Below, one piece after another: positions 2,575 through 15,847 of a stretch of DNA of 40,024 nt. Both the position numbers and the translations under genes were made by a program. The notes beneath the pieces are model-generated. The model did no database searches. It was not told the origin of the DNA and was given only the letters and a program-made list of their open reading frames with translations. The stretch is from Candidatus Gastranaerophilales bacterium (GTDB lineage Bacteria; Cyanobacteriota; Vampirovibrionia; Gastranaerophilales; Gastranaerophilaceae). The DNA is taken from the NCBI GenBank assembly GCA_017415185.1, contig JAFQHZ010000008.1:1-40024 (forward strand). Direction: 5' to 3'. How positions within the stretch are numbered: the first letter of the stretch is position 1; each line of letters starts with the position of its first letter.

Positions 2575-5500
2575 TTACTGTTCAACATAACTAATTAATT
2601 TTTCAACTGCATTTTGAATTGAATTGATTTTATCTTCTATGATTTCAACTCTATTAGATAACATTTTTGTTTGAGTCATGTTTTCATAGAAAATGTCAAT
2701 AAATTGTGCAGGATTAAAGTTTTCATTTTGGGTTTGAACCAAAAGTTCAACTTTTTTAGTTAAATCAGCAATTTTTGCATCTTGCGCTTGAGAATTTTTG
2801 ATAATATGTTTTAAAGCGTTTTCGATTTTTGCGCTGAATTCTAAAACATTTTGCTTTGATTTTTCACTTTGTAAAAGTCTTGTTTTAATGTCTTCAAAGC
2901 CAATATTTCTCATATCATCAAAACGTTCTGTTAAATCGTCAATTTTAACAACAGCATCTTTAAACCATCCAGAAAGATGTCCAAGTTCCGCTTCAACATC
3001 TCTGTTTATTTTAACGCCTTCGAGCCCTACTGTTCTTAATTCTATAATTTTTTCAAAAAGATTTTTAAACTCTTCATTATTTGCAGCATTTTTTTCAATT
3101 GTTAAACGAATTTTAGCTAAATCAGATTCAACATCTTCAAGGGTGTACGAATAATTTGAATTTTCGTCAATAGTTTTAATTCTTTTAATTGCAGATTCAA
3201 TTTTTAAGAATTCACTTGCTAGATTTTCTTTAATTTCTTGAGAAATATTGCTTTTTAAGAATTCAAAATTTGAAAGATATTCTTGAACTTTGTTAGACAA
3301 ATTATCAATATTGCTGTTTTGTTTGTCGATTCCTGAAGTGTCTTGGGGTTTATCTAATAAAGCGGAAATTTTTTGAATATTGTCTTTTAAACGTTGTTCT
3401 ATTTGTTCTTTTGTTTCTTTAAATTCGTCAGATAATTCAATATTGAATTCTTCTATTGATTGAATTTTTTCTGAAATTTTAGAAATTGCACTTAAAACAG
3501 AAGCAACATTTTTGCTTTCTTCAATTGTAGCAATTTTCATCGAAAGATTAGAAGTGCTTGATTGAATTTCTTCTAATAATTCTTTTGCGTTGTGAATTTG
3601 TTGAAGATTTGTTCTGTCGATTTTTGTTTCAATATCAACAACAGTTTCTCTTAATGATTTTTTCTCAATGATATTATCTAAATCAGCGCCGATATAATTA
3701 TCTAATAATTTATCGATTTTAAGTTCAAATTGTTGAATAGAATTTTTGTTGGTTTTATCAATAGCGCTAATGCCTTCTAAAATATCGCTTTTGATTTCAT
3801 TTAAAACATCGTGAGATTGTGCGCTTGTAGCATTAATTGTGTCGTTAATTCTATCAATTGTGTCTTGGCTGAAGTTTTCCAAGCCAACTTCAAGCGCTGA
3901 AAGTTTATTTGTGATTTTGTCAGCATTATCTTGTTGTTTAATTGAAAATTCTTGGAAATCTACTCTGTTGTTTACGAATTCTTTTTGAACTCTGTCGCTA
4001 ACAGCTTCAACGCTGTCAACCAAATGGTCTGAAAGTCTTTGAAGGTCAACTTTTAAAGTGTCTATTGTTTCAATATTTATTGTTTTAACATCTTCGTGGA
4101 TTTTATCTGCTGCAGTTTTAAGATTTTCTTGAACTGTTGAAATAATATCTAAACAAGAAGTTTTAATTTGACTTAAACTTGTGCTGTTTTCGGTTACAAC
4201 ATGGGTTCTGAAAATTTCTAATTTATCAGAAATTGTTGGAATAGCTTCTGAAATTTGGGTTAAAATTTGCATACTTGAAACAGAATTCATATCATTCAAG
4301 CTTGATTGCATATTTTGAATTGAAGATTGTATTTCAAGAGTAATGTCTCTTAAATTATCAGACAAATCTTTAATATTTCTTCCCAAATCTTGGTTTTTAA
4401 GTTCATCCATAGCTCTTTCAATTGGCTCTTGAAGAACTTTAATATTACCTTCATTAATCGCATTTAAATCTTTTTTGAATGAAGTTAAACCAACTAAAAG
4501 TGATTTAATATCTTCTTTTGATTGGTTTAAATATCTTTCAAATTCTGCTTGGTGTTGATGAGATTTGTATAAAATTTCATCATTAATTAATCCATGAACG
4601 TCTTTTAATTCATTACCAAGGTTTTGAACCGTTGTTGAAAGATTTTTAACTTCGTCTTTTGTGTTGGTTAAATTTGTAGATAAATTTTGAATATTATTTG
4701 AAACAGTAGCAACATTGCTTGTTAAATTATAAACTTCTGTTTTAACTCCTGCATCTCCTGCTGTGTTAATGATTTTTTGAATTTCATATTTAACTGTTTC
4801 AATTTGATTTTTTAATTCAGCATTCAAAGCCTGCAATTGCTGTTTTGAATCAAGAGAATTAATATCCTCTTTAAGATGGGAGATTGTTGAAGTTAGGGCT
4901 TTAACTTCTCTTAAAGCATCATTAAAAATATTTTCTCTATTTTGAATTGTGCCAATTAGACCTGTTAAATCACGATATTTTGTGTCAATTATTGATATTG
5001 CAGAAATAACAGAATTAACATTTCCTGAAATTGTATCAAGTTCAGATTTAATTGAAGAAAATTCTTCTTTTGTTGTTCCTTGTTTAATTTGGCTTAAAAA
5101 ATCAGCGAAATTTTTGTTTAAAGTGTTTGTAATATTATCAAAACCACGAGAAAAATTCATAAAATTTTCGCTTAATTTTATGATTTCTTGAGATTGATTA
5201 TTAGCTTTTTGTAATTCAATAGCGTTGAAAATCTTTTGCAAAGCTAAATCTTGGCTGTTTAATTTTGAATACATATTTGATGTATCATTTAAAAGCCTTG
5301 TGATTTCAGCAGCCATTTTTGGGTTTTGGACTTGCTGATTTTGCATAAATGCTTTAAGCGAATTTTCAAGTTCTTTTATAAACTGGTTTGTTTGACCATA
5401 TTTGTTATCAATGGTTTTACGAAATTCATTAACGAGAGTTGCTGCAATTTTTTCGCTTGAAACGGTAGTTAAATTTTCATAACGTTGCGATAAACTGGTG

Positions 5501-14981: not shown

Positions 14982-15018
14982 AATTACCCCTTTTTATGTT
15001 TATTTTAACATAGTCTGG

Positions 15019-15046
15019 TTGAAAAAATGAAATTGTAGGGTATAAT
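15019..15046 (+). promoter_or_regulatory. strong plus-strand promoter facing the small hydrophobic ORF
   Basis: TTGAAA (15019-15024), 16 bp, perfect TATAAT (15041-15046). No protein gene follows on the plus strand; transcription from about 15053 would run antisense to the 3' end of the small peptide mRNA. Confidence 0.65.
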
Positions 15047-15052
15047 ATAAAT

Positions 15053-15096
15053 ATAGGGAAAAGGCTCAAAGAGCCACTAACTCTTCGAGTTTTTCT
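15053..15096 (+). ncRNA. candidate antisense RNA (putative type I antitoxin)
   Basis: A short RNA predicted from the promoter at 15019-15046 would contain two hairpins: GGCTC-aaa-GAGCC (15063-15075) and AACTC-ttc-GAGTT (15079-15091). The second is followed by T-rich sequence that would end it near 15096. It would be fully complementary to the 3' untranslated part of the opposing 25-codon mRNA. This is a prediction from sequence architecture only. Confidence 0.45.
15063..15091 (-). terminator. shared bidirectional terminator between peptide mRNA and antisense RNA
   Basis: Two adjacent small hairpins. On the minus strand the last one (GGCTC-TTT-GAGCC) runs into TTTT and ends the peptide mRNA. 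On the plus strand the other (AACTC/GAGTT) runs into TTTTTC and ends the antisense transcript. Both RNAs would carry complementary loops. Confidence 0.6.
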
Positions 15097-15103
15097 TAAT
15101 TTT

Positions 15104-15181
15104 CTATTTAGCAAGGATTAAAAGCGCTATGATTATCAACAAGATAAGCCATAGTGCTTTTTCAGTTACAATGAACTTCAC
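15104..15181 (-). CDS. 25-residue hydrophobic membrane peptide, putative type I toxin
   Basis: The GTG start (15179-15181) is preceded by AAAGGAGGTG, the strongest Shine-Dalgarno in the window, 10 nt away. The product has a short charged N-terminus (MKFIVTEK), one uninterrupted hydrophobic helix of about 16 residues (ALWLILLIIIALLILA) and a final Lys. That is the make-up of Fst, TisB and Ibs-type toxins, which insert in the inner membrane. The Shine-Dalgarno can be buried by upstream sequence (15228-15239), and an opposing promoter gives an antisense RNA to the 3' end; both are hallmarks of type I toxin mRNAs. The ORF lies about 80 bp downstream of the small HTH gene on the same strand and may be transcribed with it. 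I know of no homologous family, so toxicity is inference. Confidence 0.6.
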   Translation of the reverse strand: MKFIVTEKALWLILLIIIALLILAK

Positions 15182-15191
15182 TTGCTTTTCA

Positions 15192-15239
15192 CCTCCTTTC
15201 CTGTCTTTTCTTCTTAACAAGTCTGTGCAGGGGGAGGAG
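15192..15239 (-). promoter_or_regulatory. 5' UTR stem able to sequester the peptide's Shine-Dalgarno
   Basis: On the minus-strand RNA the CCTCC/CCTG blocks (complement of 15228-15239) can pair with CAGG and GGAGG (complement of 15192-15203). That gives a 5-bp plus 4-bp stem with a small internal loop that would occlude the ribosome binding site. Confidence 0.5.
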
Positions 15240-15258
15240 TAAATAGGTTAGTTTACCC

Positions 15259-15468
15259 TTAATCTTTATTTTTTATAATAATTTCCATATTTAGAGCTTG
15301 TGCAATTAATTTCATTTCCGTATATCTAATAGTGTTTGCTCTAAGTTTTTTGGATAAAGTATCAAGAGAATATTTTTTATCAGAGTTGTTTGATAAGTAT
15401 TCTGCGAGATATGTAAGTGTAGTGCCTTTTTGAGCCACTAACATTTTTACTTCATTTATAGTGTTCAT
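15259..15468 (-). CDS. small HTH (Cro/CI-like) DNA-binding protein
   Basis: The 69-residue protein is little more than one helix-turn-helix domain. It has TLTYLAEYLSNNSDKKYSLDTLSKKLRANTIRYTEMKLIAQALNMEI, with the recognition helix around SLDTLSKKLRAN, as in compact XRE-like regulators common in gut bacteria. A perfect TATAAT (minus strand, 15482-15477) lies 8 nt before the ATG with no Shine-Dalgarno, so the mRNA is probably leaderless. The AACTTCTA repeats at 15507-15567 flank this promoter and the divergent one, pointing to autoregulation. The 25-codon hydrophobic peptide ORF follows on the same strand. Regulation of that peptide or of the divergent gene is inference. Confidence 0.75.
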   Translation of the reverse strand: MNTINEVKMLVAQKGTTLTYLAEYLSNNSDKKYSLDTLSKKLRANTIRYTEMKLIAQALNMEIIIKNKD

Positions 15469-15506
15469 AATCTAATATTATAATTTATTGTCGATAATTA
15501 GAGTTA

Positions 15507-15567
15507 AACTTCTATAAATATTTTGCAATTGTAGAAGTTATCTGCTAGTATTAGAATATAACTTCTA
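15507..15567. promoter_or_regulatory. divergent promoter with three AACTTCTA operator-like sites
   Basis: AACTTCTA occurs at 15507-15514 and 15560-15567, and inverted (TAGAAGTT) at 15532-15539. The first abuts the -35 region of the HTH gene. A plus-strand promoter TTGCAA (15523-15528), 17 bp, TAGTAT (15546-15551) for the 78-residue gene lies between and across them. Binding by the adjacent HTH protein is the natural hypothesis. Confidence 0.6.
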
Positions 15568-15586
15568 GTAATACAAAGGAAAGAAT

Positions 15587-15823
15587 ATGATTGAAAATTT
15601 ATTATCTGAATTAATAAGACCAATAAAAACAATAAAACTATTAAATATTTTTTTGGAAGAAATAGTTGAAGAAGAAGTTATGTGTGATGTTAGCAAAAAT
15701 CAATATGATAAAAATGAAAGCATATTAGCAATTAATTATGCTATTAAACTTGTGAATAAGGATGTTTTGAAATTAAGAGAAAGATATTATAAACTAATGT
15801 GCAAGGAAAAATTTGGTAAATAA
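15587..15823 (+). CDS. small hypothetical protein divergent from the HTH gene
   Basis: The 78-residue, highly helical protein has many Glu, Lys, Ile and Leu residues and two Cys. A run of acidic residues (EEIVEEEVMCDVSKNQYDKNES) separates two helices. No domain, membrane segment or signal peptide is visible. It has a Shine-Dalgarno (AAAGGAAAGAATATG) and a promoter embedded in the AACTTCTA operator array, so it is probably controlled by the divergent HTH protein. Its stop codon lies within the following terminator. Function unknown. Confidence 0.65.
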   Translation: MIENLLSELIRPIKTIKLLNIFLEEIVEEEVMCDVSKNQYDKNESILAINYAIKLVNKDVLKLRERYYKLMCKEKFGK

Positions 15824-15847
15824 AAAGTGGGTATATACCCACTTTTT
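15822..15847. terminator. perfect palindromic bidirectional terminator
   Basis: A 26-nt perfect palindrome (AAAAAGTGGG core, mirrored) overlaps the stop codons of both convergent genes. A-runs and T-runs flank it on both strands, so it can end transcription from either side. Confidence 0.9.

Follow-up and report, generated by a model that had tools for sequence, protein, structure and literature searches.

A candidate type I toxin-antitoxin family of the Gastranaerophilales in which the antitoxin RNA appears to be terminated by a signal within the toxin gene

A 40,024-nucleotide stretch of DNA from Candidatus Gastranaerophilales bacterium (GCA_017415185.1, contig JAFQHZ010000008.1, positions 1-40,024; hereafter the window) carries a module of approximately 240 bases that we interpret as a chromosomal type I toxin-antitoxin system of a previously undescribed family, a reading to which we assign a probability of roughly 0.83. 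The sense unit lies on the minus strand (15258-15061) and encodes a small hydrophobic peptide, while the candidate promoter of an antisense RNA lies beyond its 3′ end on the plus strand (15019-15046). An initial annotation of this DNA had already proposed a type I module here, and our in silico tests of selection on the frame, recurrence of the promoter and covariation in the leader all support that interpretation. It had also suggested a new sequence family, which agrees with the absence of matches in the databases named below, but it missed the scale: the module is no singleton, and belongs to a family that extends across an order.

A nucleotide search of related genomes recovered clear homologues, often several per genome. 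With six candidates scored per genome, a covariance model built from ten homologues matched 187 of 383 genomes of the order, in 33 of its 52 genera, and scoring twelve candidates per genome revealed up to 11 copies in a single genome, including tandem arrays with a spacing of approximately 300 bp. Genomes drawn from the phylum outside the order gave one weak match (E 0.0076). When 84,980 species were scanned with an exact pattern, 83 stretches matched, in metagenome-assembled genomes (MAGs) titled Gastranaerophilales, Melainabacteria or cyanobacterium, or bearing a title without a taxon. A spill-over into the Heliobacteriaceae was considered and rejected; the PheT protein of the MAG so titled is 71-76% identical to that of genomes of the window's family, and this MAG therefore belongs to the order.

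Searches of Rfam at gathering and permissive thresholds gave no toxin or antitoxin RNA above its curated cut-off, the SIB match on the antisense strand reaching 18.1 bits against a cut-off of 56 and not recurring in the other loci tested. The window peptide has no profile match in Pfam, NCBIfam, PADLOC or PHROGs; the other peptide classes described below have no match in Pfam, and two of them none in PADLOC or PHROGs either. Mobile carriers were sought in IMG/VR and in phage and plasmid collections, which contained no match to the module. Judged from these sequence searches, the family is previously undescribed, unnamed and order-wide among uncultured gut bacteria. About half of the genomes sampled from this non-photosynthetic gut order of the cyanobacterial phylum carry it, and it is easily missed because its genes are only 20-25 codons long, although the covariance model and patterns used here make it easy to annotate.

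The peptide frame and its leader

The sense RNA is predicted to be approximately 200 nucleotides long and to encode a single-helix membrane peptide of 20-25 amino acids. In the window, the 25-codon GTG open reading frame (ORF) pointed out in the initial annotation is present at 15181-15104 (minus strand), where it reads MKFIVTEKALWLILLIIIALLILAK*, and an intact short frame follows the Shine-Dalgarno (SD) sequence in nearly all of 128 distinct elements. The window peptide belongs to the largest class, class A, whose 104 copies share the pattern xFSITEKALxLILLIIIALKxx. The codon table of this class shows positions 1 and 2 fixed at the key hydrophobic residues, with position 3 variable. Between nearest-neighbour pairs, the ratio of non-synonymous to synonymous change (pN/pS) is 0.29 in frame, the two other frames giving 1.07 and 2.76, and remains at 0.34 for the N-terminal codons that lie outside the hairpin described below. 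By these comparisons the 25-codon frame, which is thus conserved in relatives with a synonymous bias, is under purifying selection, and a small hydrophobic peptide under coding selection is one of the features that define a type I toxin-antitoxin system. One naturally occurring copy offers a null for this frame: at L037 (1781-1999, plus strand; copy G022:C12) the architecture is intact and a one-base deletion frameshifts the peptide.

Further peptide classes have little or no evident sequence likeness to class A, namely A′ (MVIDKIELLLLLFIVATLKN), B (MNNLIIKIAITAIIAILNFILLFL, MAKKIIKTAIAVTIAVFKILSIWL) and C (MKREIIKKVLATLGLLIQILAEFV, MKRHLIKKALLGIRLFIDLIVYFI), and yet the leader motif, terminator and antisense promoter of class A recur in classes B and C. 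One genome (G017) holds one copy each of classes A and B in tandem. On sequence grounds, several dissimilar peptide classes are therefore built on one RNA chassis. The class C peptides (MKREIIKKVLATLGLLIQILAEFV and kin, at L211, L214, L216 and L217) look amphipathic instead of fully hydrophobic, so that their action at the membrane may differ from that of class A.

Upstream of the frame, the predicted 5′ leader of the toxin mRNA occupies 15182-15258 (minus strand) and would start at the GGG of 15258-15256, part of a GGGnAAGC start that is conserved across copies. The SD arm CAGGAAAGGAGGTG (15190-15203, minus strand) contains the sequence AAAGGAGGTG (15199-15190), which occurs once in the window where shuffles lead one to expect 0.05 occurrences, in keeping with the outstanding SD that had been claimed. 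The CCTCC/CCTG block proposed as its pairing partner falls within the anti-SD block CTCCTCCCCCTG (15228-15239, minus strand), and pairs with CAGGAAAGGAGG (15203-15192) in both the minimum free energy and the centroid fold. Across the family, cognate anti-SD and SD segments pair more strongly than swapped partners (z -10.4, 0 of 5000 permutations), which argues that the closed leader is under selection. Nucleotides 4-19 of the 5′ end likewise pair more strongly with the 20-nucleotide segment spanning and following their own stop codon than with the corresponding segments of other copies (z -9.5, 0 of 5000 permutations), whereas two control pairings of the same segments were flat. A specific covarying contact between the 5′ GGG and a 3′ CCC was also tried and found unsupported (z -1.0), the supported contact being that of the leader with the post-stop segment.

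Covariation and folding together point to a full-length toxin mRNA that is closed by sequestration of its SD, as in type I systems, and to a 5′-3′ long-distance contact in most members, of a kind known from aapA (PMC6733600). In this model, the ribosome-binding site would be held in a hairpin with the upstream anti-SD while, in most copies, the 5′ end of the mRNA also pairs just past the stop codon, and for these two reasons the full-length mRNA should be translationally silent.

The predicted antisense RNA and the hairpin inside the frame

The opposing promoter TTGAAA-16-TATAAT is present as proposed (15019-15046, plus strand), with 11 of 12 matches to the consensus, and no other exact match to it occurs in the window. 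It also recurs in relatives: 120 of 125 elements carry a promoter with at least 10 of 12 matches at this site, the mean being 10.76 of 12 against 7.76 in shuffles. In an alignment anchored on the hexamers, information content stays at background upstream of the -35, where conservation ends, and rises at the -35, in the spacer, at the -10 and at a GGG approximately 10 nucleotides downstream of the -10; neither the GGG nor the spacer bases were used for anchoring. Starting at this conserved GGG, the predicted antitoxin RNA would run for approximately 112 nucleotides (15056-15167, plus strand) and contain two hairpins. The fold of 15056-15168 has a z-score of -3.7, and none of 200 shuffles was equally stable.

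Two hairpins had been described in the initial annotation as shared terminators of both transcripts, and this is correct for one of them only. The 3′ hairpin and its T-run (15061-15089, minus strand) are shared and optimised for the sense strand, the terminator-like stem at 15089-15065 probably ending the toxin mRNA and doubling as the 5′ hairpin of the antisense RNA. The second hairpin (15123-15158) lies inside the ORF. It is optimised for the antisense strand, where TTTTT (15158-15162) comes after it, and the two together form a predicted intrinsic terminator of the antisense RNA (15123-15163, plus strand). The short antisense RNA directed against the mRNA 3′ end is likewise retained in part: its promoter recurs, but the RNA probably extends for about 110 nucleotides into the ORF instead of stopping after the mRNA 3′ end.

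The ORF hairpin does not follow from the peptide. Compared with random synonymous recodings it has a z-score of about -6 in the family and of -5.8 in the window (0 of 200), and compensatory changes occur within it, including in 26 hairpins that were beyond the reach of the search pattern. In 76 thinned elements its antisense-strand form is the more stable by 61:13 (p 1.7e-9, which is no strict p-value because the counts are drawn from related sequences), while the SD stem and the 3′ hairpin favour the sense strand by 57:18 and 59:17, respectively. The telling part is this opposite sign of three helices within the same elements. Among class A hairpins, G-U pairs possible on the antisense strand only outnumber those possible on the sense strand only by 60:14, and in every class the antisense strand has a T-rich stretch after the hairpin, even though different codons give rise to it. 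The greater stability of the antisense strand and the U-run found there make the ORF hairpin the likely intrinsic terminator of an antisense RNA of about 112 nucleotides (15056-15167), embedded in the toxin gene. The promoter and this antisense-strand terminator together outline an antisense RNA gene that would overlap the toxin gene, as in type I systems. A full-text search for an antitoxin terminator within a toxin ORF found no paper, which says little as it covered open-licence papers and exact phrases only.

It is probable that the strong promoter just past the toxin terminator drives this antisense RNA from the opposite strand, through the toxin 3′ untranslated region (UTR) and approximately two-thirds of the ORF, up to the terminator stem that the ORF itself contains. 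This RNA would then form a duplex with the toxin mRNA, in which complementary hairpin loops probably make the first contact, and the duplex would lead to degradation of the mRNA, a block of its translation, or both. We consider it fairly probable that this is the design of an order-wide family, in which a single RNA chassis made up of leader, SD stem, 3′ terminator and antisense promoter has been fitted with several dissimilar membrane peptides and, in every class, the opposite strand of the toxin coding sequence also serves as the intrinsic terminator of the antitoxin RNA. If so, this dual-strand overlapping code makes antitoxin termination hard to lose unless the toxin gene changes too. Approximately 120 natural variants are available for studying both a toxin gene that encodes the terminator of its own antidote and how peptides of differing sequence share one RNA control frame.

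Alternative readings and known type I systems

Several observations weigh against the type I interpretation or against a functional copy in the window. The opposing promoter alone is no rarer than chance in 40 kb: allowing at most one mismatch, the window has four such matches, one of them exact, where 3.1 are expected in A+T-rich DNA of this length, and the window promoter is significant because it recurs in relatives. The pattern used for the exact-pattern sample, which supplied some of the family members, contained the ORF hairpin; module copies that do not match the hairpin-containing pattern show the same covariation. Within the genus, only 7 of 28 genomes gave a module match, and the module is therefore dispensable. 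The remaining points concern the window copy itself. Its sense promoter is poor (9 of 12 matches), misplaced and within the end of the upstream ORF, its 5′-3′ pairing (-3.9 kcal/mol) is weaker than that with swapped partners (-5.9 kcal/mol), and the covariance model found no second copy in the genome.

These features of promoter, pairing and copy number suggest that the window copy may be partly decayed. It has also lost the GGG downstream of the stop codon, and its 3′ UTR shows several G to A changes. A module that works elsewhere in the family and survives in the window as a decaying relic is compatible with the type I interpretation, and we regard it as a real if minority possibility, given that the ORF, SD stem, ORF hairpin, terminator hairpin and antisense promoter of the window copy are all intact. 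The window copy may be a slowly decaying or a differently driven member of the family.

A second alternative is a non-toxic small membrane peptide that acts in regulation or signalling and is itself controlled by an antisense RNA and a closed leader. Selection on the frame and on the RNA cannot separate toxicity from another function, and the chromosomal position beside housekeeping genes would suit such a peptide. However, its presence is patchy, there are many copies per genome and tandem arrays, and dissimilar hydrophobic peptides have been exchanged within the same RNA frame, all of which fits a toxin better than a specific regulator; we therefore infer membrane toxicity and consider a non-toxin unlikely. 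A structured small RNA or a repeat resembling a miniature inverted-repeat transposable element, with an incidental ORF, would account for the strong structure and the short, conserved, multi-copy unit, but is strongly disfavoured and very improbable, as pN/pS falls to 0.29 in the coding frame only, the SD, start and stop are conserved and all peptide classes keep an open hydrophobic frame of 20-25 codons.

As a type I toxin-antitoxin system, the module appears to combine silencing of the kind seen in aapA/IsoA with the convergent layout of Fst/par or txpA/RatA. The aapA/IsoA systems of Helicobacter are chromosomal and multi-copy, with a peptide of approximately 30 amino acids, an antisense RNA opposite the ORF, and a full-length mRNA in which the SD is closed by local hairpins and a 5′-3′ long-distance interaction (PMC6733600); such an interaction is found in the present family (z -9.5) and is weak in the window copy. 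No profile match links the two families, and their peptides are not evidently alike. Furthermore, the antitoxin -10 box of aapA/IsoA lies within the toxin ORF, where it has been mutated while keeping the peptide (PMC6733600), whereas the promoter in our module lies beyond the toxin terminator and it is the predicted antitoxin terminator that lies within the ORF.

The par locus of Enterococcus (Fst; RNA I and RNA II) shares convergent promoters, overlapping 3′ ends and a common terminator hairpin, but its RNA overlap stays outside the coding region (PMC4147584), unlike the antisense RNA predicted here, which would end within the ORF, and the PXXXGC motif of Fst and Ldr (PMC8309996) is absent from our peptides. 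The txpA/RatA and bsrG/SR4 systems of Bacillus resemble the module in their convergent toxin mRNA and antisense RNA, with an overlap of approximately 120 nucleotides, several hairpins and complementary loops; RatA, however, is described without overlap of the toxin coding region, TxpA has 59 amino acids and the lineage is a different one (PMC3531473, PMC4147584). As its antisense overlap is predicted to enter the ORF, its antitoxin promoter lies outside the ORF and the Fst/Ldr motif is absent, the module is a member of none of aapA/IsoA, Fst/par and txpA/RatA by the features tested. The ibs/Sib repeats of Escherichia coli also pair a very short hydrophobic peptide with an antisense RNA over the ORF in multiple copies, but Sib spans the whole ORF and the ribosome-binding site (PMC4147584), and the Rfam match here is sub-threshold.

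According to a 2025 report on Microcystis, the only groups previously found to have type I systems were Proteobacteria, Firmicutes and Tenericutes (PMC12390103). The msoT1/msoA1 candidate of that report likewise falls within the phylum Cyanobacteria, but its putative toxins have 39-81 amino acids and MsoT1 (BH695_4017) two predicted transmembrane helices; the paper makes no mention of Gastranaerophilales or Melainabacteria (PMC12390103).

Genomic surroundings of the module

Module sites are intergenic, and the chromosomal genes around them are unrelated and include no recurring partner; when a conserved partner gene was sought, 121 of 189 neighbouring proteins were singletons and the largest cluster had 7 members. 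The window copy is carried by an insert of approximately 860 bp (about 14983-15843) that comprises the module, a weakly repressor-like ORF of 69 amino acids and an ORF of 78 amino acids. At the syntenic site of a relative (G003, locus L224), the glyoxalase and PpiC genes that flank this insert directly adjoin each other, and the insert was therefore gained in the window genome or lost in the relative.

The 69-amino acid ORF (15259-15468, minus strand; phrog_4583, E 0.014) ends where the module starts, and 7 of the 28 genomes in the genus contain relatives of it. Divergent from it within the same insert is the 78-amino acid orphan ORF (15587-15823, plus strand), for which Pfam, NCBIfam, PADLOC and PHROGs gave no convincing family match. 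A helix-turn-helix gene also lies near the module in the flanks of L036, L106 and L144, as in the window, and such neighbours may reflect chance or a second route of control. At L073, three tandem module copies adjoin a gene (4151-5266, plus strand) for a reverse transcriptase-like protein of 371 amino acids with a YVDD motif.
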